A stretch of DNA of 64,000 bases from Paenibacillus lupini (GTDB taxonomy: Bacteria; Bacillota; Bacilli; Paenibacillales; Paenibacillaceae): NCBI RefSeq assembly GCF_011761355.1, contig NZ_JAASRW010000001.1, forward strand, positions 496,001 through 560,000, read 5' to 3'. The position numbers and the translations under genes are program-made. The notes beneath the pieces are model-generated. The model was not told the DNA's origin and did no database searches. It saw only the letters and a program-made list of their open reading frames with translations. Below are positions 7,038 through 59,700 of this stretch, piece after piece (position 1 is the stretch's first letter; every line of letters begins with the position of its first letter).

Positions 7038-7063
7038 GAGCAAGCAAATTGAATACGAGATAA

Positions 7064-7245
7064 GTTTCAGGTGCCAATAATAGCATTCGTCTGATCGATG
7101 ATGCTATTGGATTGGTTAAAAGGGAAGTGGGTGCAAATCCCACGCGGTCCCGCCGCTGTAAGAGACGAGTCTATGCAAATATCCACTGGGTAACCGGGAA
7201 GGGTGCATAGGCGATGACGCTTGAGCCAGAATACCTGCCTGAATC
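7064..7245 (+). ncRNA. Cobalamin (adenosylcobalamin-type) riboswitch aptamer
   Basis: Contains the conserved cobalamin aptamer elements in the right order: TTCAGGTGCC near the 5' end, AAAAGGGAAG and GTGGGTGCAAATCCCACG, CGGTCCCGCCGCTGTAA, and the 3' B12 box as GAGCCAGAATACCTGCC (7223-7239). Binding of cobalamin to this RNA normally turns off downstream expression. Here it is followed by a terminator hairpin (7321-7354) and then the surface protein and ECF transporter genes, so the whole operon is predicted to be expressed when B12 is scarce. Confidence 0.95.
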
Positions 7246-7287
7246 TTTTTACACCACAATTCTACGAGCGATAGGAGGGTGTTCATT

Positions 7288-7317
7288 GTGCATGCTTATT
7301 TTGACATGTTTACATGA
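7288..7317 (+). CDS. Possible 9-residue leader peptide between riboswitch and terminator
   Basis: GTG start with AGGAGGGT at 7273-7280, 7 nt upstream; reads M-H-A-Y-F-D-M-F-T then TGA. The ribosome binding site is among the strongest in the window, yet no longer reading frame uses it. It may be a leader peptide coupled to the terminator, the relic of a lost gene, or chance. No family recognised. Confidence 0.3.
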   Translation: MHAYFDMFT

Positions 7318-7320
7318 TGG

Positions 7321-7354
7321 AACCCTTCAACTGTATTGAGTTGAAGGGTTTTTT
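7321..7354 (+). terminator. Riboswitch-controlled terminator (expression platform)
   Basis: Perfect 12-bp stem AACCCTTCAACT / AGTTGAAGGGTT with a 6-nt loop and a run of six T. It lies between the cobalamin aptamer and the first gene. The left arm (ACCCTTC, 7322-7328) is also complementary to GAAGGGT at 7198-7204 inside the aptamer region, giving a possible antiterminator pairing. Confidence 0.85.
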
Positions 7355-7402
7355 GCGTGTTTTTTTATTGTCAAGTGAGAAGATAGAGAGAGGGAGTTTT
7401 CA

Positions 7403-10400
7403 ATGAGAAAGAATAGAATTGTAATTTGGATGCTCATTGCGGCATTGATGTTATCTGTATTTTCAACACCGTTGCGTGTAAGCTATGCCGGTCCATCAGA
7501 TAACCCTGAGGGATACGTCACGTTGGATGTAGAGAATTTGACACTGGCGCAGGATACAACAGCTCCTACAATTACAGTGACTGGTCTGACGAACAATCAG
7601 GTTGTTACGGAGCAGCAGCTTGCCTTTACTTTGGATGTAGCGGATAACGTTCCCCAGACGATTGTTCCGGAAGTTACTCTGAATGGTAACTTACTGCAGC
7701 CATCAGAAAATCAATATACAGCTGATCTTGTATCGGGTCTGAATACGATCATCATCAAAGCAACAGACAGCTCAGGTAATCTAGCATCTCAAACATATTC
7801 CATTGCCTATAAAACAAGTACGGCCGCAACTATTGAGCAATATGTGGACCGTAATTTGGCTTATATATTGTCCCACGCAACCGAACCGATCTTCGGAACA
7901 CTGAACGGCGAATGGTCTGTTTTGACGTTAGCACGTGGTAATTACCAAGTTCCAGACGGCTATTATGACAGTTATTACAACAAGGTTGTATCTGCCGTAC
8001 AAGATAAACAAAACGTACTTGATGCAAGTAAATATACCGAGCACTCCAGAGTTATTCTTGCTTTGACTTCCATTGCCAAGGATGTGACGGATGTAGGTGG
8101 TTATAACCAATTAGAAAAGCTTGCTGATTTCAATAAGGTTATCGTGCAAGGGATTAACGGTCCAACCTTCGCTCTCTTGGCATTGGACAGCCATGATTAT
8201 GAGATTCCTGTCGTTGAAGGTGTACCGGTTCAATCAACGAGAGAAAATCTGATTCAATATATGCTGGACAAAGAAGTGAAGAAAGACACTGAAAATGCAG
8301 GTGGATGGGGCTTTGGCAATTTTGTTGATGTGGACCTGACCTCGATGGCGCTTCAAGCATTGGCACCTTATTACACCACCAATCCTGATGTCAAATCGGC
8401 GGCTGACCGTGCAGTTGCTTGGCTCTCCAAGTCACAAAGCAGCAATGACGGCGGCTATTCCTCAAGCGAAAGTATCGCTCAGGCTATTGTTGCGCTTAGT
8501 GCACTGGGGATAGATGCTAATACAGATCCGCGTTTTGTGAAAAATGGCAATTCGCTTATTGACGCCTTCCTGTTATATGCCTTACCGGATGGAGGCTTCA
8601 GACATACAAAGACAGGCGGCGTTAATGGGATGGCGACCGATCAAGGCACCTATGCCCTGGTCGCTTATGCTCGCTTCCTGAAACAACAGCATTCGCTGTA
8701 TGACATGACGGATGTAACCCTTTCAATTGATCCTGACCAGCCTGAAAACCCGGGCGATCTGATTTTGCCTGCAGGTGATTCACCGCAAGTAATGGTTCCT
8801 AGTGATTCCACGGATTACCGTATACCGGTTACTGCTGCTGACAGCGGCAAACAAATCAGTATTATAATTCCTAGTGATAAAACATCTGAGGTCAAATTAA
8901 GCCTACCACTCAATACGGCGCTTCCGCAGATTGAAGCGGTAAAAGGAAATGCGTCGTTATTGATTCCACAAGGCGCACAAGTAACAGCCGGAGATTCGGG
9001 CAGCATTCATTTGTTTACTACATTAAATACATCCGATTCAGCACTGCAGAATCAGATCAAAACGATAATCTCGAATGGCAAACAGCTGGATCAAGTATCA
9101 CTAGCCTTCTCGATGGGTGGCAATGCTCGAGTTCAATTCAATCAGTTTGTTACACTGACATTCAAAGGAATGAGCGGGAAAAATGCCGCCTACATCGAAG
9201 GTGGCGTAGCAACAAAGGTCACCCAATATGCAAGCGATGCATTAGGGCTCGCCAGCGGTAAAAGCGAATATGCCTACAATAACGGTTCTGATCTTGTAAT
9301 TAAGACAAATCATTTTACGGACTATGTTGCTTTCGCTGAAAGCACAACAGTTGTGGATGGAGGAGGCAGCAATCCTCCGCCGACAGCAACGAAATACGTC
9401 ACGTTATCCGTTGATAAATTGACGATCAGCAAAGGGTATACCGTTCCAAGTACGAAGATTGAGCTGCGTACAGGTGATAACGCATGGAGCGTACTCAAAC
9501 GGATTTTGGACAGCAAGGGTATTTCATACGATTACACCTTTACTCCTAAATATAACAGTGTCTATGTACAGTCCATTGCTGGTGACGGGGAATTTGATCA
9601 CGGTGAAGGCAGCGGCTGGATGTACAACGTGAATGGGGTTTATCCGGACTTTGGGTCCAGCCTATATGAACTTAAAGACGGAGATAAGCTTCAATGGCGT
9701 TATACAACGGATCTTGGTCTCGATCTAGGTGTTGAACCGGGAGACTGGGAGACGCCAGATGAAGATGGCGGCAACAACAGTGAAGGTAACGGAAATACGG
9801 ATGGCGATGGCGAAACAGGGGGTACTGGAGGTACCGTTACACCTCCAGCCTCGAGCGACTTAGAGAAGCTCTACTCAGATGCTTCCCAAATCTCGGATTG
9901 GGCGAAACAGGAGATTAAACGGGCATCGGAAAAAGGCATCGTACAAGGAAGCAGCGGCAAGTTCTATCCGCAGGCTTCGGTTACAAGAGCGGAATTTGCC
10001 AAAATGCTAGTGTCGGTCCTCACTCTTCCGACGACAGCGCCTGCAGCTGATTTCACAGATGTCACGGCTAAAGACTGGTATTATTCCTATGTGAATGCCG
10101 TTGCGCAAGCCGGCTATATGAGCGGTTATGACAAGCATTTTAATCCGAATGCAAGCATCACCCGTGAAGAGATGGCTGCGACAATTGTCCGTGCACTAGG
10201 CATTAAAGCTTCAAAACCAAATTCGGCGATTAAAGATCTGCAGAACGCATCCGTCTGGGCGCAATCGGATATTGCGACGATTGTAGAAAGTGGCTTGATG
10301 ACGGGAGCAAATGGCAAGTTTGATCCACATGCGAAGGTAACTCGCGAGATTGCTGCTGTTGTGGCTATGCGTTCTTATGACTACAAACAATCCGGAAATG

Positions 10401-11362
10401 GCAGTACTAAGCCGATTGACGCAAAACAGCTCGAAGTACAAGCAAAGATCAAGACGACAGCTGCGTTCCTGCAGCAAGCGGTAACCGACCCTGTCATTGC
10501 GAGTGTTGGAGGGGAGTGGACGGTATTAGGCTTGGCGCGTTCGGGCCTTCCAGTATCGGATGCCTATTATTCCAAGTATTACTCGAATGTCGAGCAAACC
10601 GTGAAAGAGAAGGAAGGCAAGCTTCACTCGGTAAAATATACCGAATATGATCGTGTCATTCTGGCTCTGACCGCAATTGGCAAAGACATTCACAATATTG
10701 CTGGCTATGATTTATTGAAGCCTCTGGCCGATTACGAAACAGTAATCAAGCAAGGGATTAATGGTCCGATCTTTGCACTTATTGCATTAGACAGTAACGG
10801 CTATTCCATCCCAACCGATAGCAGCGTAAAGACTCAGTCAACTAAGGAGCTGTTGGTTGATTTTATTCTAAACCGTGAGATTGCAAGCGGCGGATGGGCG
10901 CTCGGAGAAAATCCTGATGAAGCAGACGCGGATATAACGGCGATGGTCTTTCAGGCATTTGCACCGTATTATTCAACTGATACGAAGGTGAAAGCTGCCG
11001 TTGACCGCGGACTTGCCTGGCTCTCGAAAGCTCAGCAAGCGGATGGAGGTTATGCAAGCGGTGGTGCAGCTAATTCAGAAAGTGCAGCTCAAGTTGTTGT
11101 TGCTCTAACGGCACTCGGCTTGGATCCACAGACCGATGACCGTTTTGTGAAAAATGGTCATTCGCTTCTGAATGCATTGCTCAGCTATGCGGCAGCAGGC
11201 GGCGGATTCTACCATGTGAAATCTGGAAGTGCGAGTAATGGAGGAGCGCAGCCAGGTGAAGTGGATTTAATGGCAACTGATCAGGCCTTTTATGCGCTTG
11301 TCGCTTATGACCGCTTCAAGAGCGGAAATACCCGACTTTATGACATGTCAGACGTACAATAA
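7403..11362 (+). CDS. SLH-anchored surface protein with two terpenoid-cyclase-like barrels and a transcobalamin-like DUF4430 domain
   Basis: 1319 residues. Order: signal peptide (1-29); Ig-like region (about 38-136); alpha6/alpha6 barrel 1 (about 140-437) with GG(W/Y/F)-type repeat motifs such as GGWGFG, GGYSSSES and GGFRH; a beta-rich stretch (about 445-650) not recognised; DUF4430 beta domain (about 664-776) with SGWMYNVNG and ELKDGDKLQW; a Gly/Asp/Asn-rich linker; three SLH motifs (about 826-996), which bind pyruvylated cell wall polymer; then barrel 2 (about 1010-1319), clearly a duplicate of barrel 1 (both have KYTE, RVILALT, GINGP, ALDS). Animal intrinsic factor/transcobalamin pairs the same barrel and beta domain to bind B12. 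Being first behind a cobalamin riboswitch, it is probably a cell-surface cobalamin or corrinoid binder (inference). Good site GAGAGGGAG before ATG. Confidence 0.88.
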   Translation: MRKNRIVIWMLIAALMLSVFSTPLRVSYAGPSDNPEGYVTLDVENLTLAQDTTAPTITVTGLTNNQVVTEQQLAFTLDVADNVPQTIVPEVTLNGNLLQPSENQYTADLVSGLNTIIIKATDSSGNLASQTYSIAYKTSTAATIEQYVDRNLAYILSHATEPIFGTLNGEWSVLTLARGNYQVPDGYYDSYYNKVVSAVQDKQNVLDASKYTEHSRVILALTSIAKDVTDVGGYNQLEKLADFNKVIVQGINGPTFALLALDSHDYEIPVVEGVPVQSTRENLIQYMLDKEVKKDTENAGGWGFGNFVDVDLTSMALQALAPYYTTNPDVKSAADRAVAWLSKSQSSNDGGYSSSESIAQAIVALSALGIDANTDPRFVKNGNSLIDAFLLYALPDGGFRHTKTGGVNGMATDQGTYALVAYARFLKQQHSLYDMTDVTLSIDPDQPENPGDLILPAGDSPQVMVPSDSTDYRIPVTAADSGKQISIIIPSDKTSEVKLSLPLNTALPQIEAVKGNASLLIPQGAQVTAGDSGSIHLFTTLNTSDSALQNQIKTIISNGKQLDQVSLAFSMGGNARVQFNQFVTLTFKGMSGKNAAYIEGGVATKVTQYASDALGLASGKSEYAYNNGSDLVIKTNHFTDYVAFAESTTVVDGGGSNPPPTATKYVTLSVDKLTISKGYTVPSTKIELRTGDNAWSVLKRILDSKGISYDYTFTPKYNSVYVQSIAGDGEFDHGEGSGWMYNVNGVYPDFGSSLYELKDGDKLQWRYTTDLGLDLGVEPGDWETPDEDGGNNSEGNGNTDGDGETGGTGGTVTPPASSDLEKLYSDASQISDWAKQEIKRASEKGIVQGSSGKFYPQASVTRAEFAKMLVSVLTLPTTAPAADFTDVTAKDWYYSYVNAVAQAGYMSGYDKHFNPNASITREEMAATIVRALGIKASKPNSAIKDLQNASVWAQSDIATIVESGLMTGANGKFDPHAKVTREIAAVVAMRSYDYKQSGNGSTKPIDAKQLEVQAKIKTTAAFLQQAVTDPVIASVGGEWTVLGLARSGLPVSDAYYSKYYSNVEQTVKEKEGKLHSVKYTEYDRVILALTAIGKDIHNIAGYDLLKPLADYETVIKQGINGPIFALIALDSNGYSIPTDSSVKTQSTKELLVDFILNREIASGGWALGENPDEADADITAMVFQAFAPYYSTDTKVKAAVDRGLAWLSKAQQADGGYASGGAANSESAAQVVVALTALGLDPQTDDRFVKNGHSLLNALLSYAAAGGGFYHVKSGSASNGGAQPGEVDLMATDQAFYALVAYDRFKSGNTRLYDMSDVQ

Positions 11363-11373
11363 GCTTGATCTTA

Positions 11374-11397
11374 GCAAGGGCATTCATATGCCCTTGC
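11374..11397 (+). other. Intercistronic hairpin
   Basis: Perfect 10-bp inverted repeat GCAAGGGCAT / ATGCCCTTGC with a 4-nt loop, 12 bp after the stop of the surface protein gene. It is followed only by a mixed TTCGTTATTTTC tract, so it may be a partial terminator or 3'-end stabiliser that raises the first gene's message over the transporter genes. Confidence 0.6.
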
Positions 11398-11433
11398 TTC
11401 GTTATTTTCATCAATGAAAAGGTGGGAAATAGG

Positions 11434-12381
11434 TTGACGAAGAAAAAATGGCTGTCCGCCTGGCTCATCATTATCGGAGTTTTGGCGGTTGCTTACTTCT
11501 GGGGAGGGGATTATGCGAAAAACCCTTCATCCGATTCTACTGGTGTTATTGTCTCAAAGGAAGAACCACTCCCTACTTCGACTCCGATCGAAAGTGCTGA
11601 TCCGGAGTTGGATTCTAAAGGCACTCCAAGCGCAATAGAAACTTCAGAGGCAACAGCAACTCTGAATGAGCAGCAAAACGGTAACAAAGAGGAACCAGCA
11701 AATACCAAGCAAGACAGCCATACAGGTAAAGATCCTGTTAAGTCGAACGATGAGACTAAAGCTTCAGCTTCTCCTTCTTCGACGAACACCCCGGCTGACA
11801 GCGGTTCTGGAGCCGTGAAGGAGCCAGATCCGACTTCAACAGCGAAGCCTCCGGCAGCTTCACCAGATGAGAATAAGGATAAATATCAGACGGATCCTGT
11901 GCCCTTAGGCAAACCTAAGCCTGTTGAACCGCAGGATACCATTATCGATAAAAAGAAGGCGTTAACCGTTACTTTATCGGTATCAACGGCAACTATTCTG
12001 AACAATTTGAACAGCTTCAACAAAGATAAGCTGGAGGTACTGCCGAAGGATGGCGTCATTTATAAAGCGCAGAAGGTCACCTTGTATGAAGGGGAATCGG
12101 TCTTTGATGTGCTGCTGCGGGAAATGAAAAAGAACAAGATACATATGGAGTTTGAGATGACGCCTATCTATAACAGCAATTACATAGAAGGCATTAATAA
12201 TATTTACGAATTTGACTGTGGGGAGCTTAGCGGTTGGATGTATAAAGTAAATGGCTGGTTCCCCAACTATGGAGCAAGTCGGTATGCTTTGAAAGATGGA
12301 GATGTAGTGGAATGGGTATACACCTGTGATCTGGGGCGTGACGTAGGCGGTTATGTGGCTGGAGCGGGTGGCAATTCATGA
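11434..12381 (+). CDS. Membrane-anchored DUF4430 (transcobalamin C-terminal-like) protein
   Basis: 315 residues: basic N-terminus and one membrane helix (about residues 6-24, LSAWLIIIGVLAVAYFW), then about 140 residues rich in Ser, Thr, Pro, Glu and Lys that look like a wall-spanning stalk, then a DUF4430 beta domain (about 172-312) with SGWMYKVNG, YALKDGD and YTCDLG. The domain matches that of the preceding surface protein. No Cys lipobox; it looks like an uncleaved anchor. TTG at 11434 is chosen because GGTGGG lies 7-8 bp upstream; the frame extends to a TTG at 11365 without a binding site. Its stop overlaps the ECF T gene start by 4 bp (ATGA), indicating translational coupling. Likely role: handing cobalamin to the ECF importer (inference). 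Confidence 0.8.
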   Translation: MTKKKWLSAWLIIIGVLAVAYFWGGDYAKNPSSDSTGVIVSKEEPLPTSTPIESADPELDSKGTPSAIETSEATATLNEQQNGNKEEPANTKQDSHTGKDPVKSNDETKASASPSSTNTPADSGSGAVKEPDPTSTAKPPAASPDENKDKYQTDPVPLGKPKPVEPQDTIIDKKKALTVTLSVSTATILNNLNSFNKDKLEVLPKDGVIYKAQKVTLYEGESVFDVLLREMKKNKIHMEFEMTPIYNSNYIEGINNIYEFDCGELSGWMYKVNGWFPNYGASRYALKDGDVVEWVYTCDLGRDVGGYVAGAGGNS

Positions 12382-13268
12382 ACAGCGGCTTCGCGACCTT
12401 TCATCCCTTTGTGAATTTGGTTTATTTTATCGCCGTGCTGCTGTTTGGAATGTGGTTCATGCATCCAGACTTTCAAGCAATCGCACTCGTTAGTGCTATC
12501 GTGTATGCCATTGTTCTTCGGGGAAGAGCAGCAGTGAAATTTCAATTGATCTATATGCTGCCACTATTGCTTGTAATGGCGTTAATTAATCCAGCGTTTA
12601 ATCATGCAGGTGTGACGATACTGTTCTACCTGAAGAACGGGAATCCCATCACATTAGAATCCATTCAATACGGGCTCGCATCAGCTTGTATGTTCGTTAC
12701 GGTCATTATTTGGTTCTCGTGTTATAACGCAGTGATGACCTCCGATAAGTTTATTTATTTGTTTGGCAAAATCATTCCGGCCCTATCGCTTATTTTCTCA
12801 ATGGTGCTTCGGTTCGTTCCAAGATACCAGAATCAATTAAAGCGGATTTCATTCGCACAAAGAAGCATCGGCCAAGATATGAGCCAAGGCAACTTGCTGT
12901 ACAGAGCAAAGAACGGTCTAACAATCTTATCGATCATGACGACCTGGGCGCTCGAGAATGCGATCGAAACAGCTGATTCCATGAAATCCAGAGGCTACGG
13001 GCTGCCGGGAAGAACAAGCTATTCCCTATATCGGTTCGATAATCGGGATAAAGGGTGCTTGATTATAATGTTCATTCTTGTCGCAGTTGTCTTGTCAGGA
13101 CAGGTGAAAGGTGAGAATACAATGCGATTTTTTCCTTCTATAAAAGTGGCAGAGGTTACTCCATTTAGTATCCTCGTCTACATCGCTTACTCCGGTCTAT
13201 GTATGCTGCCGGTTATTCATTATATTTTGGAGGGAATAAAGTGGAGATCTATCACATCCAGAATGTAA
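12378..13268 (+). CDS. ecfT: ECF transporter transmembrane T component
   Basis: 296 residues, CbiQ/EcfT family. About six to seven hydrophobic segments, and the coupling region with the SRG motif (DSMKSRGYGLPGRT) that contacts the ATPases. The T component links the substrate-binding S protein to the two ATPases. The start overlaps the preceding stop (ATGA) and the 3' end overlaps the ATPase gene by 28 bp, so stoichiometric expression with its neighbours is expected. A dedicated (group I-like) ECF module is indicated because S, T and A are all in the same operon. Confidence 0.87.
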   Translation: MNSGFATFHPFVNLVYFIAVLLFGMWFMHPDFQAIALVSAIVYAIVLRGRAAVKFQLIYMLPLLLVMALINPAFNHAGVTILFYLKNGNPITLESIQYGLASACMFVTVIIWFSCYNAVMTSDKFIYLFGKIIPALSLIFSMVLRFVPRYQNQLKRISFAQRSIGQDMSQGNLLYRAKNGLTILSIMTTWALENAIETADSMKSRGYGLPGRTSYSLYRFDNRDKGCLIIMFILVAVVLSGQVKGENTMRFFPSIKVAEVTPFSILVYIAYSGLCMLPVIHYILEGIKWRSITSRM

Positions 13269-14920
13269 GCTTTACGTTCCCGATGCAGGAGAAGAAAGCG
13301 CTTGAAGGCATCAATCTTACCATTCAAGGCGGAGAGTTTATTACGATAGGTGGAAAATCCGGAAGCGGCAAAAGCACGCTGCTTCGCCAAGTGAAGCCTA
13401 TTTTGTCCCCGCATGGTAAAAGGGAAGGTACACTAACCTATCGCGGAAGACCGATCGAAGACGTCGACCAGCGAACACAAGCTTCGGATATTGGCTTTGT
13501 CCTGCAAAATCCAGATAACGGAATTGTAACAGATAAGGTATGGCATGAGCTGGCTTTTGGACTCGAAAGCTTAGGTCTTGATCAACAAACCATTCGGCTT
13601 CGTGTAGCGGAGATGGCAAGCTTTTTTGGGATTCAGACCTGGTTCCATAAGTCAGTTACGGAGCTGTCTGGTGGACAGAAGCAGCTGCTCAATCTGGCTT
13701 CGATTATGGCGATGCACCCATCCGTACTTCTGCTTGATGAGCCTACCTCCCAGCTTGATCCGATTGCTGCAGCCGATTTTATTGAGACGCTTCGGAAAAT
13801 CAATCAAGAGCTTGGTACAACCATTATTTTGACCGAGCATCGGCTGGAAGAAGTACTGCCGGTATCCGATAGATTCATCGTCATGGATGAAGGTCGGGTT
13901 ATCGTCGATGGTACCCCAAGGGAAGCGGGAGAAGCCTTATGGTGTATGGGTCATCCGATGTTTACTGCGATGCCCTCGTCCATGCAAATTTATGCTGGAG
14001 TAACGAAGGACACACCATTTCCAGTTACGGTAAAAGAGGGGCGTCAGTGGCTGGATCGGTACTTGGAAGACAAATCGAATGTTCGAGAAGAGGTTACGTT
14101 AAATTCTCAAACTTTGAATAATACCAATCAGCTGCCTGCTCTGAGGTTTAAGGATGTATGGTTCAAGTATGAGAAGAACGGGGTTAACATCATTAAAGAC
14201 CTGTCATTCGAAGTAGCCGAAGGGCAATTGTACTGCTTGGTTGGTGGAAATGGGACGGGCAAGACAACGGCTTTATCACTAGCTGGTGGACTTTATCATC
14301 CATACCGGGGGAAAGTGTTAATCGGCGGGAAAAACATTTTATCCATGCAAGCAAAAGAGCTGTTCACGAACAATATCGCCTATCTCCCGCAAAATCCACA
14401 GCACTTATTCGTCAAGAAGACCGTCGAACAGGATTTATATGAAATCTTGTCTCGATCGTCAATGTCAAAGGAAGAGAAGGCTAGGAAGATTACCGCTATG
14501 GCAGAGTTTCTAGAGCTGGAGCCGCTTTTTGCCATGCATCCGTATGATCTGAGCGGGGGAGAGCAGCAGAGAGCGGCGCTTGCAAAGGTGCTTCTTCTGG
14601 AGCCGCGTATTCTCTTGCTAGATGAGCCTACTAAAGGGCTGGACAGCTTCTTCAAAGCAAAGCTTGCTTCTTATTTGAAACAGCTGAATGCAAACGGCGT
14701 TACCATTCTTATGGTGTCACATGATATTGAATTTTGTGCAAAATACGGGGATGTGTGTGCATTGTTCTTTAATGGGAGCATTACGACAAGTGGTGCGGCG
14801 AAGCCGTTTTTTGCCGGGAATCATTTCTATACAACTGCGGCTAATCGAATGGTACGTCATGTGTGGCGTGAGGGCGTAACGGTGGAGGATGTGATTGCGT
14901 TATGCAAGAACACCAGATAG
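13241..14920 (+). CDS. ECF transporter energy-coupling ATPase, two ABC domains fused (A-A')
   Basis: 559 residues with two ATPase domains in one chain. Domain 1 (about 1-235): Walker A GGKSGSGKST near residue 37, Q-loop VLQNPDN, signature ELSGGQKQ, Walker B LLLDEPTSQLD, His switch ILTEHRLEE. Domain 2 (about 305-540): Walker A GGNGTGKTT near 335, signature LSGGEQQR, Walker B LLLDEPTKGLD, switch VSHD. This is the fused equivalent of EcfA1-EcfA2 (as in YkoD-type proteins). GTG at 13241 is chosen since GGAGGG lies 6 bp upstream; the open frame runs further to 13199 within ecfT. The 3' end overlaps the S-component gene by 19 bp. Confidence 0.93.
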   Translation: MEIYHIQNVSFTFPMQEKKALEGINLTIQGGEFITIGGKSGSGKSTLLRQVKPILSPHGKREGTLTYRGRPIEDVDQRTQASDIGFVLQNPDNGIVTDKVWHELAFGLESLGLDQQTIRLRVAEMASFFGIQTWFHKSVTELSGGQKQLLNLASIMAMHPSVLLLDEPTSQLDPIAAADFIETLRKINQELGTTIILTEHRLEEVLPVSDRFIVMDEGRVIVDGTPREAGEALWCMGHPMFTAMPSSMQIYAGVTKDTPFPVTVKEGRQWLDRYLEDKSNVREEVTLNSQTLNNTNQLPALRFKDVWFKYEKNGVNIIKDLSFEVAEGQLYCLVGGNGTGKTTALSLAGGLYHPYRGKVLIGGKNILSMQAKELFTNNIAYLPQNPQHLFVKKTVEQDLYEILSRSSMSKEEKARKITAMAEFLELEPLFAMHPYDLSGGEQQRAALAKVLLLEPRILLLDEPTKGLDSFFKAKLASYLKQLNANGVTILMVSHDIEFCAKYGDVCALFFNGSITTSGAAKPFFAGNHFYTTAANRMVRHVWREGVTVEDVIALCKNTR

Positions 14921-15639
14921 ATAACCGAAACGGATGGAGGAATAAACGGACACTAATATCCGCGATCCTCATTCTGCTTGTTATTCCGGCAACTATTATG
15001 TTTGGCGTATTTGCTCTTGATGACCGGAAGTATTATTTCATCAGCCTGCTCATCATTCTTTATACGATGCTGCCCTTTACTTTGGTGTTTGAGCGTAGAA
15101 AGCCGCAAGCACGCGAGCTGATTGTAATTGCTGTACTAACGGCTATTGCTGTTGCTGGACGAGCTGCCTTTTTTATGATCCCACAGTTTAAACCTGTTGT
15201 AGCCATTGTTATTATTGCAGGAGTTAGCTTTGGTCCGGAGGCAGGTTTCCTGGTTGGTGCGACTACAGGGTTTGTCTCTAATTTCTTTTTCGGACAAGGT
15301 CCCTGGACGCCTTGGCAGATGTTCTGTTTTGGCATTATTGGATTTCTAGCTGGTATTCTGTTTAGGCGTGGATGGCTAAAAACCAGTAAGCTGGCTTTAT
15401 GTACGTTTGGCGGGTTAGCGACTTTTTTCATCTATGGGGGCATCATCAATATCGGTTCATTACTAATGTTCACACCTGTACTATCGAGAGATGCTTTAAT
15501 CGCTACTTATGCCTCTGGCTTCTGGTTTGATATGGTTCATGCCATAGCAACCGTGATTTTCCTTTATTTTCTCTCTCGGCCGATGATCGAGAAGCTGGAC
15601 CGGATTAAAGCGAAATATGGATTGATTGAATCTAAATGA
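14902..15639 (+). CDS. ECF transporter S (substrate-binding) component, probably for cobalamin
   Basis: 245 residues with about seven hydrophobic segments and a small polar N-terminus. The central part (AGRAAFF...FGPEAGFLVGATTGFVSNFFFGQGPWTPWQMFCFGI) has the usual S-component features: an A-G-R turn in helix 1 and a Gly-rich helix 3/4. It resembles the CbrT-like S components that import cobalamin and cobinamide. The riboswitch at the head of the operon supports B12 as substrate, but sequence alone does not prove it. It begins inside the ATPase gene, so it is translated with it, and a strong terminator closes the operon. Confidence 0.85.
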   Translation: MQEHQIDNRNGWRNKRTLISAILILLVIPATIMFGVFALDDRKYYFISLLIILYTMLPFTLVFERRKPQARELIVIAVLTAIAVAGRAAFFMIPQFKPVVAIVIIAGVSFGPEAGFLVGATTGFVSNFFFGQGPWTPWQMFCFGIIGFLAGILFRRGWLKTSKLALCTFGGLATFFIYGGIINIGSLLMFTPVLSRDALIATYASGFWFDMVHAIATVIFLYFLSRPMIEKLDRIKAKYGLIESK

Positions 15640-15670
15640 TCGAATGTACATGATGTCTGCCGATTACCTG

Positions 15671-15703
15671 AGGCCATTCCTTAAATAAAGGAGTGGCCTT
15701 TTA
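15671..15703 (+). terminator. Terminator of the cobalamin operon
   Basis: Stem AGGCCATTCCTT / AAGGAGTGGCCTTT with a short loop and trailing T residues, 31 bp after the S-component stop. Confidence 0.85.
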
Positions 15704-15865: not shown

Positions 15866-17353
15866 ATGCAGCAAGCGCAAAATAACTCTCCAACCGGGGG
15901 CATTCGGGTGGGAGTACAGAAATTTGGACGTTTTCTAAGCGGCATGGTCATGCCCAATATTGGCGCTTTTATAGCATGGGGTATTATAACGGCGTTGTTC
16001 ATTCCTACGGGATGGCTGCCGAATGAAACTCTTGCAAAGCTTGTTGATCCGATTATCAAATATCTGCTGCCGCTCTTGATCGGGTATACCGGCGGCACGA
16101 TGGTTCATAAGCAGCGCGGCGGTGTAATTGGTGCTCTAATGACAATGGGCATTATCGTCGGTACAGATATCCCGATGTTCCTTGGAGCTATGATTTGCGG
16201 ACCACTCGCCGCATGGGTGCTGAAGCAATTCGATAAATCGATCGAGGGGAAAATCAAGTCCGGCTTTGAAATGCTGGTGAACAACTTCTCACTTGGTATT
16301 ATCGGCGCCATACTTACTTTAATTTCTTATTCCGGTGTAGGACCCGTAATCGAACAACTAACCAAAATTTTATCGGACGGCGTGGAATTCCTGGTTAATC
16401 ATAACTTGATTCCGCTGGCCAACATTATTATTGAGCCTGCAAAAATTCTGTTCCTCAACAATGCCATTAACCATGGCGTGCTGAGTCCAATTGCCTTAGA
16501 AGAAGCTTCACGTACAGGCAAGTCCATTCTCTTCATGCTCGAGTCCAATCCAGGCCCGGGTCTTGGCATCCTGCTTGCCTACATGATTGCAGGCCGGGGT
16601 ACAGCGAAGCAATCCGCTTCCGGCGCAGCGATCATTCATTTCTTCGGCGGGATTCATGAGATTTACTTCCCGTATATTCTGATGAACCCGCGTTTGATTT
16701 TGGCTGTAATTGCTGGCGGCGTAACCGGTACCTTGACATTCTCGATGTTTGGCGCGGGTCTTGTCGCACCACCATCGCCGGGCAGTATCTTTGCTTACGT
16801 TGCAATGGCTCCAAAAGGCGGTCTTCTGGCAGCCTTGAGCGGCGTAGTAACAGTTGCCATCGTTTCGTTTATTTTTGCGGCTCTGCTGCTCAAGACATCC
16901 AAGAAAGAAGTTGAGGATGAGGATGGGTTGGAAGAGGCTTCGGCAAAAATGAAGCAAATGAAGGCGGCAGGCAATACAGCTGCAGCAGCAAATGTGGTTG
17001 CCGTAAGTGCACCTTCGGAAGCCGGTGAACAAGACATTCAGCCTACTGAAGCTGCGAATGATACGCACAAAGCCAAAGAAGATGTTCAAAAAATCGTCTT
17101 CTCGTGCGATGCCGGCATGGGCTCGAGCGCAATGGGGGCATCGATTCTTCGCAAGAAGATGAAAGCCGCAGGTTCGGATGTGACTGTCATCAATACGGCT
17201 ATCAGTGATATTCCCGGCGATGCCGACATCGTTATCACTCATAAAACGCTGACAGAGCGGGCTATAATTCAGGCACCAAATGCTGAACATATCTCGATTG
17301 ATAATTTCTTGAAAAGCCCGGAGTACGACAAGCTTGTAGACCGGCTTTCGTAA
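15866..17353 (+). CDS. mtlA: Mannitol PTS transporter, EIICB component
   Basis: 495 residues. The N-terminal membrane EIIC domain covers about residues 1-345, with the conserved GIHEIYFPY motif and NHG. An Ala/Glu-rich linker of about 60 residues follows, then a cytosolic EIIB domain (about 408-495) whose phosphorylated Cys is near residue 414 (VFSCDAGMGSSAMGAS). It imports mannitol and converts it to mannitol 1-phosphate. The EIIA domain is not fused but is encoded by mtlF downstream, as in Bacillus and Geobacillus. Strong ribosome binding site GAGGAGGAAC. Confidence 0.96.
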   Translation: MQQAQNNSPTGGIRVGVQKFGRFLSGMVMPNIGAFIAWGIITALFIPTGWLPNETLAKLVDPIIKYLLPLLIGYTGGTMVHKQRGGVIGALMTMGIIVGTDIPMFLGAMICGPLAAWVLKQFDKSIEGKIKSGFEMLVNNFSLGIIGAILTLISYSGVGPVIEQLTKILSDGVEFLVNHNLIPLANIIIEPAKILFLNNAINHGVLSPIALEEASRTGKSILFMLESNPGPGLGILLAYMIAGRGTAKQSASGAAIIHFFGGIHEIYFPYILMNPRLILAVIAGGVTGTLTFSMFGAGLVAPPSPGSIFAYVAMAPKGGLLAALSGVVTVAIVSFIFAALLLKTSKKEVEDEDGLEEASAKMKQMKAAGNTAAAANVVAVSAPSEAGEQDIQPTEAANDTHKAKEDVQKIVFSCDAGMGSSAMGASILRKKMKAAGSDVTVINTAISDIPGDADIVITHKTLTERAIIQAPNAEHISIDNFLKSPEYDKLVDRLS

Positions 17354-17438
17354 CGGATCCTTTCTCATCAAGGCTGCCTGCGCTGGAGATTATTTTCCGG
17401 CGCCGGGGCCATTCTATCGTTATAGGAAGGTTTTGTGA

Positions 17439-19517
17439 ATGCGTATATCCAGCCGGTCACGCCGTATTCTAGAGCTGCTGCTTCGGAATGATCAAGATCT
17501 GACAGCGGCACAAATTGCGTCAGAGATTCAAGTTAGTTCAAGAACAGTTCATCGTGAATTGGAAGCGGTCGAGGACATTCTGTGCACGCAAGGTGTTGAA
17601 CTGATCAAGAAATCGGGTTCAGGCATTCGGCTGCAGGGTGACAAGGCTGCGCTTAATAGATTAGCTCAACTCGTCACCGTGTCGGAGGATATCGAACTTT
17701 CTCAAGAGGAAAGACAAATTTACCTGCTATGTTTACTTCTCGAGAGCGCCGAGCCGGTCAAACTATTCACATTAGCGCATGAATTGAAGGTGACGATGCC
17801 TACCGTAGCGCATGATCTGGATGATCTTAGCGATTGGGTGCGGAAATTCGAGGTTACCTTGACCCGTAGAAGGGGTTATGGCATAGAGCTTTCCGGCGAG
17901 GAGGAGCAACAGCGAGAGATGATTCGTCAAGTCATCAAGTCACGATTTGATGATACGGAGCTGATCTCAAGCCGTAACGAGCCTCCGGCTCATCCGCTTG
18001 ACCGCAGGTTGTTTGCCATTGCGGGTCAATCGAAAATAGAAGCCGTCGAGAAGATCTTATGGAGCTGGGAAGAGCATGGAGGCAGCCACTTAAGCGAGGA
18101 TGCTTATACAGATTTGCTAATCAGGCTGTCTATTGCCTTGCAGCGAATCCAGACGGGGAAAACCGTTAAAGTATTTTCCGTCGTCTATCAGGGCAATAGC
18201 TTGGTAGTACCTCATGAGTCTGATACGGTGTACCTCACGAATCGGTTAGCGGAGCTTACGGAACAGGATTTTACGCCGGAGGAGACGGCTTATATCGGCA
18301 GACTGCTTCGTTCAGCGCAGACAGAGGATCTCTTGGTGCTGCCGGCGGATGACCTGGCCTTAACCGAGATGGTGCGTTCTCTTATCGAGCACGTCCAGAA
18401 CGCAGTCGGGGCCGAATACAACAAGGATCGTTCTCTACGGGATGGACTAATCCTTCATTTGAAGGATGCCTTGCAGCGGCTCGACGAAGGGACGAATATC
18501 CGCAATCCGCTTCTTGATCAAATAAAGAAGGATTACAAATCGCTGTTTGTCATCGTTCGCGAAGCGGCAAATGATGTTCTCTCGGATGTTGTTGTGCCGG
18601 ATGAGGAAATCGGTTTCCTGGTCATGCATTTCGGAGCATCGCTGGAGCGGCTGAAGCAGCTGCGGCACAATGTTCGTGCCATTCTGGTCTGTTCCAGCGG
18701 AATCGGATCCTCTAAGCTTCTGCAGATCCGTCTGCAGAAGGAACTGCCGGAGATTCATATCGTCGACCGCGTGTCTTGGTATGAAGCTTCACGGACGGAG
18801 AAAGAAAAATACGATCTGATTATTTCTACGGTGGATCTGCCTCTTGCCAGCGAGCAGTATATCAAGGTCAGCCCACTATTGACGCAGGCAGAGGTGGACA
18901 GACTGCGGTCTTTTATCCAAATCGGACTGGGCCATTCGCGAGAAGGTATTCTTGTCAGGGAAGAGAAGATCGGGGCAGAAGCCTCGACCTTCGAACAATT
19001 GGTCAGTCTTAAGACCACGCTGGACGAGATGGTGAGTTTGATCGGGCGCTTTGAGGTTGTGCAAATCAAGAAACAGAGCGGAGATTTGCCCGTTATTCTG
19101 CAAGAAGCCTGCTCACATGAAGAAGCCAAAGGCGTGCTTGCAGATGCTGGCTTGGTAGCTCAGCGGCTTATACAGCGCGAACAAAGCGGTAGTCAGATGA
19201 TACCGGGAACGGCGGTTGCCTTATTTCATACCCGCGGTGAAGAGATTATACGTTCTTCGTTGTCATTATACCGATTGGAAAATTCACTTATCATCGAAAC
19301 GGCATCGCCGTCGCGGTTAAGTCATTTTTTGTTAATGCTGGCACCACGAACCTTATCCAAGGAAGTGCTTGAGGTATTAAGCGAAATAAGCGCCATGCTG
19401 CTTGATACGGTCATGATTGATTTGCTTGAGGCCGGCAATGAAGCAGAAATTCGAGACTATTTAACCATACATCTAAGACAGTTTTTCAATATAAAAGCGG
19501 AAGCGAGTGACGTATAA
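17439..19517 (+). CDS. mtlR: Mannitol operon transcriptional activator MtlR (BglG/PRD family)
   Basis: 692 residues, usual MtlR length. Order: N-terminal helix-turn-helix domains (about 1-150, with AAQIASEIQVSSRTVHREL), two PTS regulation domains (about 180-400; PRD2 includes EEIGFLVMHFGASLERL with a conserved His), an EIIB-gat-like domain (about 403-490, Cys in ILVCSSGIGSSK), and a C-terminal EIIA-like domain (about 540-690, His in ALFHTRGEE). In bacilli it activates mtl transcription when phosphorylated in PRD2 by HPr and dephosphorylated in its EII-like domains, i.e. when mannitol is being imported. The stop overlaps the mtlF start (TAATG). Confidence 0.95.
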   Translation: MRISSRSRRILELLLRNDQDLTAAQIASEIQVSSRTVHRELEAVEDILCTQGVELIKKSGSGIRLQGDKAALNRLAQLVTVSEDIELSQEERQIYLLCLLLESAEPVKLFTLAHELKVTMPTVAHDLDDLSDWVRKFEVTLTRRRGYGIELSGEEEQQREMIRQVIKSRFDDTELISSRNEPPAHPLDRRLFAIAGQSKIEAVEKILWSWEEHGGSHLSEDAYTDLLIRLSIALQRIQTGKTVKVFSVVYQGNSLVVPHESDTVYLTNRLAELTEQDFTPEETAYIGRLLRSAQTEDLLVLPADDLALTEMVRSLIEHVQNAVGAEYNKDRSLRDGLILHLKDALQRLDEGTNIRNPLLDQIKKDYKSLFVIVREAANDVLSDVVVPDEEIGFLVMHFGASLERLKQLRHNVRAILVCSSGIGSSKLLQIRLQKELPEIHIVDRVSWYEASRTEKEKYDLIISTVDLPLASEQYIKVSPLLTQAEVDRLRSFIQIGLGHSREGILVREEKIGAEASTFEQLVSLKTTLDEMVSLIGRFEVVQIKKQSGDLPVILQEACSHEEAKGVLADAGLVAQRLIQREQSGSQMIPGTAVALFHTRGEEIIRSSLSLYRLENSLIIETASPSRLSHFLLMLAPRTLSKEVLEVLSEISAMLLDTVMIDLLEAGNEAEIRDYLTIHLRQFFNIKAEASDV

Positions 19518-19951
19518 TGAGTATTTTATCTACAGATAAAGTGAAATTGAATGCGGCGGTAAAGGACAAATATGAAGCTGTTCGTATAGCCGGTCAATTG
19601 CTGGTCAATGCGGGCCATGCTGATCCAAGCTATGTTGAAAGCATGGTTGTTCGTGAGCAATCTCTCTCCACTTACATGGGCGGCGGCCTTGCTATTCCTC
19701 ACGGGACAAACGAATCGAAGGGCTCGATTAAGTCGACGGGCTTGTCCATCGTTCAAATCCCGGAAGGAGTGGACTTTGGCGAAGGAAACATCGCGCATCT
19801 GATTATTGGAATTGCGGCTTCAGGAGACGATCATCTGGATATTCTTACGAACGTAGCGATGATTTGCTCCGATGATGACAGTCTGGAACGGATTTTGAAA
19901 GCTTCCACAGCTGAAGAAATGATTGAAATCTTCGAAAGCGGGATGGAATAA
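19517..19951 (+). CDS. mtlF: Mannitol PTS EIIA component
   Basis: 144 residues, EIIA of the mannitol/fructose family. The phosphorylated His is residue 62 in GLAIPHGTNESKG. It carries phosphate from HPr to the EIIB domain of MtlA. Start and stop each overlap the neighbouring genes by one base (TAATG), so mtlR, mtlF and mtlD are translationally coupled. Confidence 0.96.
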   Translation: MSILSTDKVKLNAAVKDKYEAVRIAGQLLVNAGHADPSYVESMVVREQSLSTYMGGGLAIPHGTNESKGSIKSTGLSIVQIPEGVDFGEGNIAHLIIGIAASGDDHLDILTNVAMICSDDDSLERILKASTAEEMIEIFESGME

Positions 19952-21102
19952 TGAAAGCATTGCATTTTGGAGCGGGTAACATTGGACGCGGATTTATCGG
20001 ATTGCTTCTGTCGCAGTCGGGATACGAAGTGATCTTCTCCGACGTGAACCAGGCGCTTGTCGCCGAACTTCAGAAGCGCGGAGCTTATACGGTGACGCTC
20101 GCTAATGCTGACAAGGATCAGCTGCAGGTAAAAGGCGTAACGGCCATCGACGGGACAAGAATTGACGAGGTGGCGGCAGCAGTGGCAGAAGCCGATTTGG
20201 TGACCACAGCCGTAGGCGTCAATATCTTAAAGCATATTGCTGCGGGTATTGCCCGTGGTATCGAGAAGCGATTGGAAAGCGGAAAGGGCCCGCTGCATAT
20301 CATCGCATGCGAGAATGCGATAGGCGGCAGCACTCAATTGAAAGAGCATGTATACGGGCATCTGGATGCAGAGACACAAGCAAAAGCGTCCGAATGGATT
20401 GCTTTTCCCGATGCGGCTGTAGACCGGATTGTTCCCATCCAGCATCATGAGGACCTTCTTGCGGTAACGGTTGAGCCGTTCTATGAGTGGGTTGTAGACG
20501 AATCGGCGATGTTCGAAGGGTACAAACCGGTGGAAGGCATCCATTACGTCAGTAATTTGATGCCTTACATCGAGCGCAAATTGTTCACCGTAAACACGGG
20601 ACACTGTGCTGCTGCCTACTTGGGAAGCCTTCAAGGTTATGAGACCATTCAGCAGGCAATGGCCGATGAGGTCATCACAGACGTAGTGAAGGCGACGCTG
20701 AAGGAAACGGGCGCTGTTCTGGTTGCCCAATATGGTTTTGATCAAACTGAGCATGACCAATATATCGAGAAAATTATCGGACGATTCCGTAATGATCAGC
20801 TGACAGACGAGGTTACTCGCGTCGGACGGTCTCCTATCCGTAAGCTGTCGCCCAATGACCGTCTTGTGAGGCCTGCTTTACAGGCCCATGAGAAAGGAAT
20901 GAGGCCTATATATTTGGCAAAAGTAATGGCGGCGGCGCTTTGTTTCCATAACGCCGATGATCCAGAAGCTGTCGAGCTGCAGCAATCGATTAAGGAGAAG
21001 GGTGTCGGGAAAACCGTTTCAGACTATACTTCTATTCCGGAGGGACATCCGGTCTATGAATTGATTATGAAAAGCTACGATGCCCTTGCAGACCAGGCGT
21101 AA
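19951..21102 (+). CDS. mtlD: Mannitol-1-phosphate 5-dehydrogenase
   Basis: 383 residues, normal length. N-terminal Rossmann fold with FGAGNIGRGFIG, and the family's catalytic-domain motif (NTGHCAAAYLG, near residue 210-220). It oxidises mannitol 1-phosphate to fructose 6-phosphate with NAD. Coupled to mtlF upstream by TAATG; the Enzyme I gene follows after 30 bp. Confidence 0.97.
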   Translation: MKALHFGAGNIGRGFIGLLLSQSGYEVIFSDVNQALVAELQKRGAYTVTLANADKDQLQVKGVTAIDGTRIDEVAAAVAEADLVTTAVGVNILKHIAAGIARGIEKRLESGKGPLHIIACENAIGGSTQLKEHVYGHLDAETQAKASEWIAFPDAAVDRIVPIQHHEDLLAVTVEPFYEWVVDESAMFEGYKPVEGIHYVSNLMPYIERKLFTVNTGHCAAAYLGSLQGYETIQQAMADEVITDVVKATLKETGAVLVAQYGFDQTEHDQYIEKIIGRFRNDQLTDEVTRVGRSPIRKLSPNDRLVRPALQAHEKGMRPIYLAKVMAAALCFHNADDPEAVELQQSIKEKGVGKTVSDYTSIPEGHPVYELIMKSYDALADQA

Positions 21103-56700: not shown

Positions 56701-56776
56701 CGCTGACTAAGTTGTGCTGGTATAATAAGGTGGTAAAAGAAATGTATTCGACACTACTCGGATGGAGCTGAGAAAC

Positions 56777-59700
56777 GTGCAAAGCTCGCCATTATCTTCC
56801 TTTCATCCATCGCTTGCGGAATGGTTCGGAGCTAAATTTGGGGATCCGACCGATGTGCAAAAACAAGCATGGAAAGCGATTGCAGCAGGCGAAAACACGC
56901 TGATTGCCGCTCCAACGGGGTCGGGCAAAACATTGGCGGCTGTCCTTCCATGCCTTGATGCGATCGCACGAATAAAAGCTCAGAAGCATGAGGCCGGAGT
57001 TCGGCTTATTTATATTACGCCACTGAAAGCATTAAACAACGATATTCACGATCATCTGGTTGCCTTTATCGAGCAGATTGATAAGCATGCGGCTTCAGCG
57101 GATAACAGCTGGCCAGGTCTTCGCAGCGGGGTCCGGACAGGAGATACTTCCAGCTCAGTTCGATCCACTATGTATCGGAAACCACCGGATATTCTGGTCA
57201 CGACGCCGGAGTCACTCTACATTCTGCTGACCTCCGAGAAGGGAAGGCAGATGCTGAAGACGGTCTCCTTCGCTATTATTGATGAGATTCATGATCTGGC
57301 AGCAGATAAAAGAGGATCTCATCTTTCTTTATCTCTGGAACGGCTGGAGTTATGGTGCGGCCGGCGTATACAACGGATTGGCGTATCGGCTACGCAAAAG
57401 CCATTGGAACGGGTGGCCCGTTTTTTAGGAGGCTGGCAGGAAGCACCTAACAGCGTGGAAGAAGGAATAGCAGAAGAAGATAACATAGAGCTGTTCCGTC
57501 ATCCGCTTGGATACCATCCTCGCCCGGTGACGATTGTGGAAAGCCATATGGTTAAAAAGCTTGAAGTCACATTAACGATGCCTGATCAATCGCAGCCCAT
57601 GCAGACCCGTGATGCGGTCTGGCTGCCGATACTGGACAGGCTCTTTGCACTGATGACCGATTGCTATTCGGTCATTATCTTCGTCAACAGCCGCCGCCTC
57701 TGTGAGCGGCTATGCCTTCGGCTGAACGACCATGCTGGCTATGAGATGGCGAGGTCCCATCATGGCAGCATTGCGAAGGAGCGCAGGCTGGAAGTTGAGC
57801 GGATGCTGAAGGCTGGCGAGCTTCGCTGCATCGTGGCCACCTCCTCGCTGGAGCTTGGCATCGATGTTGGGCATATCGAGCTGGTTATCCAGCTCGATTC
57901 GCCGATTGAAGCCGCATCCGGCATTCAGCGGATCGGCAGGGCAGGGCATGCCGTCGGCAGCGCCAGCCGCGGCGCCCTTGTTGCCCGGCAGCGAGGAGTG
58001 CTGCCGGAAATGGCCGTGCTCGGCAAACAAATTGCCGAGCGTGACATTGAGCCGATTCGGATCCCAAGGGATCGGCTTGATGTCCTATCACAGCAGACGA
58101 TTTCTATCGTCGCTGCGGAGGACATGGCTGTAGGCGATCTGCATCGGCTGATCGCCCGCAGTGACAGCTACCGCAGCTTCCCGATGGGGAGGCTGCGCGG
58201 AATGCTTCAGGTGCTGGCGGGCTTTTACCCGTTTGCCCGGCCGCGGCTGGATTGGAACCGCGATACGGATACGCTCGTGAAGCGGAAGAATACGATGATT
58301 GGCGCGCTTACTGGCGCAGGAACGATACCCTCCAGCTCGGCTTATCCGGTGCATCATGTGGACAGCCGCGTCCATCTAGGTGAGCTCGATGAAGAGTTCG
58401 TTCAGGAGAGCCGCGTAGGTGATGTGTTCCAGCTTGGCATGAACGGCTGGATGATTCGACGGATTGATAAGGATCGTGTGTATGTGTCTGAGGCGGGCAA
58501 TCGCTTTAGTGAGATACCGTTTTGGCGTAATGAAGGACTTGGACGTTCCTATTCCCTTGGGAAGAAGGTTGGAGCGTTTATTGCTGAGATAGAGCGGCGT
58601 TTGCTTGAAGGGGAAGATGACAAGCTTCTGGCTTGGATCACCGAGAACTACCAGATGGATGACTACACTGGTGAGCAGCTGTTGTCCCTTATTCGTTCCC
58701 AGCAAGCTATCTGTGACCTTCCGACGGATAAGCGGATTGTAATCGAGACTTATCGGGATCTCATGAACCAGACCCATGTCATTATGCATAATCCGTTTGG
58801 CAGAAGGCTAAACCGAACTTGGCTGCTCGCCATTGAGCGGCAGTTCGAGCTGCTTCTGCCCTACCGGCTGTACGGCAATGCGAAGGATAACGGCATCGAG
58901 TTCGTCCTGCCCGAATGGGATTCCTCCTGGCTGCAGACGATCTGGCAGGTTACACCTTCTAATGTAGAGGCACTGTTGACCGAAGCGATTACCGGGTCAC
59001 CGCTGCTAGCCATTGCATTCCGGCATATTGCCGAGACTTCGCTGCTGTTATCACGCAGTTTCGGAAGGACGCCGCTGTGGCAGAAAAGGCTGCGCAGTGA
59101 GGAATTGCTTCGCGAAGCGCTTCCTTATGCCGAGCATTTTCCTTATTTGACGGAAGCGATGAAGGAATGTCTTCATGATTATTTGTCGCTTGAGGATCTT
59201 CGCGCGCTATTAACTTCTATTCAAGATAATGAGATAGAAGTTGTGGTGAAGGAGACGGAATATCCTTCTCCGATGGCAACGCAGTTTCTTGCTGATTATG
59301 TAAATATGCGGATCTATGAAGGTGACGGACTTGATCCCGCCATTCAGATGCAGCTTATGAATGTAAGTAAGGATCTGGCTGGCCGATTGTTTGGTGAAGA
59401 AGCGGTGCGTAACGCCATTCCTCAGCAAGTGCTGGAAGCAGAGCGGGAAAGACTGTCGGAGCCGGAGCTTGAGATACGCGAAGCTCGAGATGTCGTAAGC
59501 CTGCTGAAACGACGTGGTGATTTGGCAGCTGATGAACTTATACAGCTGGCTGGAACAGAAGCTTTGCAATGGGCAGAGCAGCTTCAGCGAGATGGTGAAC
59601 TTACAAGCTACTTGCCCTCTGAGGATATGCCTCAGGAGGAGCAACGGTGGATTTGCAGGGATGAGCAGGAGATCTATTCGAGCTTCCCTGCTACCGATGA

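Follow-up and report, generated by a model that had tools for sequence, protein, structure and literature searches.

We analysed a window of 64,000 nucleotides from Paenibacillus lupini (contig NZ_JAASRW010000001.1, positions 496,001 to 560,000) and describe an operon within it that stands behind a cobalamin riboswitch and encodes a predicted wall protein (ORF1), a predicted membrane-anchored stalk (ORF2) and an energy-coupling factor (ECF) importer. Judging from its genes and predicted structures, this operon probably captures vitamin B12, and probably other corrinoids too, at the cell wall and passes it, likely via the DUF4430 domain on the stalk, to the importer. Because Burroughs, Balaji, Iyer and Aravind 2007 (main text of PMC1796856) had predicted such systems, the operon is a member of a kind predicted earlier and not of a new kind. 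Genes, domains, predicted folds, recurrence, riboswitch linkage, B12-binding proteins and the absent CbiC match were computed directly, and from these we infer ligand binding, the order of transfer and import. An earlier note on the same DNA had interpreted the operon in this way; it was partly supported, being right in outline, overstated for the barrel of ORF1 and not original.

A cobalamin riboswitch precedes five genes

The features of the operon, in positions of the window, are as follows.

7052-7256, + strand, cobalamin riboswitch aptamer RF00174 (113 bits against a cut-off of 31.5; full model, positions 1-189)
7319-7355, + strand, terminator-like hairpin with a T run (fold -24 kcal/mol, z -6.0)
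7403-11362, + strand, ORF1, 1319 aa, with barrel 1, a linking beta region, DUF4430, an SLH region and barrel 2
11373-11398, + strand, terminator-like hairpin between ORF1 and ORF2 (-19.1 kcal/mol, z -5.4)
11434-12381, + strand (start predicted), ORF2, with an N-terminal hydrophobic stretch, a long low-complexity S/P/T-rich linker and DUF4430
12378-13268, + strand, EcfT, transmembrane component of the CbiQ family (PF02361, 30.3 bits against a cut-off of 25)
13241-14920, + strand (start predicted), fused double ECF ATPase (two ABC_tran stretches; TIGR04520 over its cut-off)
14902-15639, + strand, EcfS, CbrT-like substrate component (PF12822 over its cut-off)
15670-15700, + strand, terminator-like hairpin 3' of the last gene (-21 kcal/mol, z -4.5)

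The riboswitch match exceeds the gathering cut-off of RF00174 and spans the full aptamer, in agreement with the cobalamin riboswitch that the earlier note had placed ahead of the operon. The hairpin at 7319-7355, which is absent from the list of a simple terminator scan and was found by reading and folding the sequence, is likely the expression platform of the riboswitch, that is, its switch. The five genes 3' of the riboswitch run in the same direction and overlap or are tightly spaced, the last of them, EcfS, stopping at 15639; as the same gene order recurs in other genomes, the arrangement is not due to chance. Since the second hairpin separates ORF1 from ORF2, the ECF genes are perhaps made at a lower level.

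DUF4430 domains on a predicted wall protein and a predicted membrane stalk

ORF1 begins with a stretch that reads as signal-like, and custom profiles place barrel 1 at residues 143-438, DUF4430 at 663-777, SLH at 831-1005 and barrel 2 at 1011-1319. Its Pfam matches over the cut-off include SLH (three stretches) and alpha/alpha-toroid families. The earlier note had described an alpha6/alpha6 barrel and DUF4430 on an SLH anchor, all of which were found, and had missed the second alpha6/alpha6 barrel, C-terminal of the SLH repeats. Among named organisms, Paenibacillus supplies the closest relatives of ORF1, such as proteins of Paenibacillus sp. MMO-58 and JDR-2 with 83-84% identity over the region searched, and many Paenibacillus relatives have the same domain combination.

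ORF2 most likely starts at TTG 11434, which is preceded by a ribosome-binding-like stretch, rather than at 11365, and its makeup agrees with the DUF4430 domain on a membrane stalk described before. Strongly hydrophobic N-terminal stretches were found in 133 of 136 stalk proteins (one per locus), so membrane anchoring of the stalk looks general. A lipobox-like N-terminal pattern occurs in 23 of the 136, a simple pattern applied to mechanical open frames in which chance matches are possible. The stalks are likely anchored by a helix, or by a lipid in some lineages.

Both ORF1 (residues 691-768, 64.6 bits) and ORF2 (68.1 bits) match the Pfam DUF4430 family PF14478 above its curated cut-off of 23.8 bits, which places them in the transcobalamin-like SLBB beta-grasp clade, and human transcobalamin (TC) passes the same cut-off by a narrow margin. 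The predicted structure of the ORF2 domain has the beta domains of animal B12 carriers as its best matches and thus the fold of the transcobalamin C-terminal beta domain, bearing out the resemblance that the earlier note had stated. The model of this domain has a helix at 51-61, strands at 66-71 and 76-82 and then a strand at 95-100; Tyr78, in the hairpin, is invariant across 73 sequences and would be the counterpart of the aromatic residue in the transcobalamin-like clade. The alignment profile of stalk DUF4430 domains found no transcobalamin among PDB sequences (best E 0.68), hence the tie between DUF4430 and transcobalamin rests on structure comparison and Pfam. A profile comparison between DUF4430 and the human TC beta domain gave a weak match in a plausible register (P 0.014), the comparisons with human TC domains being based on few effective sequences (Neff 1.8 and 2.6). 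PDB entry 3u7z from Ruminococcus gnavus, titled 'putative metal binding protein', also has the transcobalamin-beta fold, and its title may mislead.

A CbrT-like importer in a probable corrinoid scavenger

The ECF set named in the earlier note proved complete, comprising EcfT, the S component and two ATPase domains; the fused ATPase most likely starts at GTG 13241. EcfS, judged by sequence similarity to solved structures, is closest to a cobalamin-specific S component: its best solved relative is 6fnp, the cobalamin S component of ECF-CbrT (E 3e-11), followed by 4hzu (E 0.035), as expected for the CbrT-type importer suggested previously.

The genome encodes three B12-binding proteins, namely MetH, a B12-binding protein with a MeaB domain and a B12-binding radical SAM protein. 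Since the genome yielded no match to CbiC, de novo B12 synthesis by the CbiC route looks absent. A second cobalamin riboswitch in the same genome (C7:74000-90000) precedes corrinoid-salvage genes for BtuF, BtuC, BtuD, CobT, CobU, CbiB, CobS, a CobD-like aminotransferase and CbiZ, the names other than CbiB having been assigned by reading the translations. Taken together, this suggests a scavenger of corrinoids equipped with two importers.

These salvage genes, which by reading include those for cobinamide, also bear on whether the imported substrate is a precursor or analogue among the corrinoids (cobinamide, cobyrate), or cobalt, instead of cobalamin. Such a substrate would suit the membership of EcfT in the CbiQ 'cobalt transport' family, and a C. 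difficile ECF transporter behind a cobalamin riboswitch is presented as a cobalt importer in the available text of PMC11477304. We regard this alternative as quite improbable, given that CbrT, which EcfS resembles, imports both cobalamin and cobinamide according to the available text of PMC5997447, that DUF4430 folds like a cobalamin-binding domain, and that cobalt alone would hardly give B12 where no CbiC match is present. Transport of cobalt only was set aside on the missing CbiC match and the CbrT-like S component.

The operon recurs behind cobalamin riboswitches

Within the family, DUF4430 occurs in 64 of 148 genomes and a cobalamin riboswitch in 144. In all 61 family genomes with listed DUF4430 places, at least one place lies no more than 15 kb downstream of a same-strand cobalamin riboswitch (33 genomes by script, 28 by hand check against further riboswitch matches), while a rough estimate from riboswitch density puts the number of genomes linked by chance at well under one. 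G018, G044 and G144, with weak DUF4430 matches only and no listed place, stand outside the 61. The script compared 120 DUF4430 places among the matches listed with riboswitches likewise among the matches listed, leaving out extra matches in frames already taken as well as G051:C6:203649, which sits behind the riboswitch G051:C6:202962, and G072:C9:265852. The linking riboswitch reaches only 33.0-40.0 bits (cut-off 31.5) in G024, G048, G069 and G106. As for single places, G041:C9, unlinked by the script, does have a riboswitch, G072:C9 and G082:C70:125143 have matches below the cut-off (26.0 and 26.2 bits, respectively), and G064:C27 lies at a contig start.

Beyond the family, an even sample of the phylum contained DUF4430 in 26 of 81 genomes, 24 of them outside the window's family. 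By hand reading of the scan results, DUF4430 stands behind a riboswitch in 19 of these 24, and the stalk, T, ATPase and S genes occur together in 18. Of the five without a link, G172 and G217 have contigs shorter than 7 kb, no riboswitch was found genome-wide in G195 and G204, and G208 reaches only 23.8 bits. The earlier note had asked for a search of this gene order behind cobalamin riboswitches, and the results support a tie between this class of operon and cobalamin riboswitches, in the family sample as well as in that of the phylum.

Two further observations concern genes around DUF4430. On the 592-kb plasmid CP117684.1 of Latilactobacillus curvatus, a DUF4430 protein (116200-116463) adjoins EcfT. 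At three family loci (L044, L057, L088) a barrel-DUF4430-SLH protein is followed only by a small EcfS (179-180 aa) and the riboswitch match is weak (33-40 bits); this EcfS maybe shares a distant ECF module.

Barrel, stalk and importer genes across 149 loci

To describe how the modules are combined, 149 loci were classed, comprising 68 from family genomes picked by DUF4430 (L035-L102), the best 80 of 260 by ORF2 similarity (L103-L182) and the window. Because the loci were picked by ORF2 similarity or DUF4430, the class counts are biased towards stalk operons; the phylum sample was not so picked. The stalk is present in 136 of the 149, and 128 of these 136 also have T, ATPase and S genes. A barrel protein containing DUF4430 occurs in 90 of the 136 stalk loci (alone in 74, beside a barrel-only protein in 15, plus L177), and in another 39 the barrel proteins are solely without DUF4430. 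Sixteen Clostridia-type loci among the 80 were scanned with Rfam: a riboswitch lies upstream of the stalk within 8 kb in 10, downstream only in three, and three have none. In 27 of the 80 (e.g. L147, L154 and L162), a single open frame contains both the ATPase and the S component, an ECF fusion. At L040 and L062, barrel-DUF4430 proteins of 854-859 aa with no SLH match and no nearby ECF set are encoded directly behind a strong cobalamin riboswitch, and these are perhaps secreted corrinoid binders.

A proposed relay and the evidence weighed against it

In the relay that we propose, low internal cobalamin would cause the riboswitch to let transcription through the 7319-7355 hairpin, and the SLH repeats would hold ORF1 in the wall, where it would present its barrels (alpha) and its DUF4430 domain (beta). 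A beta domain may bind B12 first and a barrel then cap it, as in transcobalamin, after which the stalk-borne beta domain of ORF2 would take the ligand from the wall protein and deliver it to EcfS. Surface capture and hand-over had been put forward in the earlier note as well.

A number of observations weigh against this relay. Searching Pfam with ORF1 (E up to 0.01) returned no PF01122 (Cobalamin_bind), and no match to it came from any of 59 second barrels either (E up to 1), compared with 381 bits for human TC; ORF1 is therefore not filed in the animal transcobalamin family. Structure comparison of the barrel with the animal alpha domain showed only the alpha6/alpha6 fold in common, with squalene-hopene and related cyclases as the nearest folds, and the barrel profile had no significant match to the transcobalamin alpha profile (P 0.086). 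In the model of ORF1 residues 140-776, the two domains are not arranged as in transcobalamin (superposition of both domains, rmsd ~31 A; pTM 0.52). The claim that ORF1 has the same two modules as the animal carriers held for the beta domain; the barrel is alike in general fold only. Seven of the 136 stalk loci lack a nearby barrel protein, so some loci do without the barrel, and four loci (L165, L173, L174, L182) have stalk and barrel with no ECF gene in the stretch examined. Presence is patchy: DUF4430 is lacking in 84 of the 148 family genomes, and of the 14 genomes listed for the window's own genus 3 have it and 11 do not. No riboswitch was found near the DUF4430 places G051:C10, G062:C1:1753854, G092:C65 and G141:C1:5428138. 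Among 14 control genomes, the two bearing DUF4430 (Lactococcus lactis and Methanosarcina acetivorans) had no RF00174 match, indicating that DUF4430 is not riboswitch-linked everywhere. Finally, given the BtuFCD-like genes, the operon would not be the sole corrinoid importer of the cell.

Part of this evidence would fit another division of labour, in which the stalk DUF4430 and the ECF importer handle B12 alone and the SLH-barrel protein acts as a scaffold or binds some other partner, such as a glycan, a wall polymer or a different surface protein. The seven loci that keep ECF genes without a nearby barrel protein, the lack of a significant sequence tie between barrel and transcobalamin alpha, and a barrel fold nearest to terpene cyclases and then sugar epimerases would all agree with it. 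We consider it unlikely, since a barrel protein stands beside the stalk in 129 of 136 loci, and L040 and L062 place barrel-DUF4430 proteins behind a cobalamin riboswitch with no ECF genes in the stretch examined.

By profile as well as by structure, the barrel matches squalene-hopene and drimenyl diphosphate cyclases best, which also raises the idea that it is a terpene-cyclase-type or glycosidase-type enzyme and that the operon modifies or degrades a substrate; the operon context is one of transport, and we give this idea very little credence. DxDD is the acid motif of terpene cyclases. D-x-D is kept in 57 of 59 barrel rows, and one row has DxDD elsewhere in the barrel. The terpene-cyclase reading was set aside as DxDD is not kept, the aligned fourth position never being D in the 59 rows.

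Within the capture-and-relay reading, the frequent separation of barrel and DUF4430 on different proteins suggests a split transcobalamin. When the halves of human transcobalamin are made separately, they join only with cobalamin present (available text of PMC5599065), and cobalamin is bound first by the beta half (available text of PMC11107200). A beta half beside the importer, with the halves on two proteins, would fit this beta-first order. By this analogy we tentatively suggest, as a possibility that we rate below the relay itself and short of probable, that a wall barrel (alpha) and a membrane-stalk DUF4430 (beta) may be glued together by B12, with capture and hand-over by beta swapping, and may represent the living bacterial form of a carrier that animals later used fused.

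Relation to known systems and implications

The main text of PMC1796856 (Burroughs et al. 2007) describes transcobalamin-like domains in low-GC Gram-positives fused to alpha/alpha toroids, with a second paralogue in the operon, CbiO/CbiQ neighbours and hosts usually without key B12 synthesis enzymes; B12 scavenging was predicted, and animals were proposed to have acquired their carrier from such bacteria. The operon is alike in its secreted transcobalamin-type beta-grasp and toroid protein, an extracellular paralogue (often present in the 2007 set), a CbiO-like ATPase and a CbiQ-like membrane protein. The words 'riboswitch' and 'S-layer' are absent from that main text. Added here are the counted riboswitch linkage, the CbrT-type S component, SLH anchoring, the two barrels and the location of alpha and beta on separate proteins. 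The available text of PMC2667541, PMC4350170, PMC3766115 and PMC6593275 holds nothing on bacterial DUF4430 in B12 uptake.

We found no experimental test of such a system in the open-licence literature searched. SEED has an annotation reading 'additional lipoprotein component of predicted cobalamin ECF transporter', and no paper on a 'predicted cobalamin ECF transporter' was found in that literature.

Compared with animal transcobalamin, intrinsic factor and haptocorrin, the beta fold is common and the barrel is unlike PF01122 and only fold-similar, whereas the bacterial proteins have SLH or membrane anchors, extra domains and modules that are often on separate proteins. The T component and ATPases are typical of ECF transporters and EcfS is most similar to CbrT; in contrast to ECF-CbrT of Lactobacillus delbrueckii, as far as described in PMC5997447, T, fused ATPase and S here share a single operon that also encodes predicted extracellular binding proteins. 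Surface capture of B12 ahead of an importer is likewise found in the Bacteroides B12-binding lipoproteins (available text of PMC6143338), although in a Gram-negative envelope. The Gram-positive Isd haem relay (available text of PMC7299338) offers a works-like analogy of wall-anchored proteins with a membrane importer for a tetrapyrrole; its ligand differs and no shared domain is claimed.

In the remainder of the window, the genes past the operon (15866-21102) read as a mannitol PTS set (EIICB, regulator, EIIA and mannitol-1-phosphate dehydrogenase), and a large Lhr-type helicase lies at 56762-61192.

With the riboswitch linkage counted, what had been a guess at the level of domains becomes a claim to a specific substrate of DUF4430 in Bacillota. 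If the proposed relay is true, it would account for the collection of scarce B12 across a thick wall by many Bacillota, would give the human B12 carriers a bacterial counterpart and would make the 2007 prediction directly testable with small domains.

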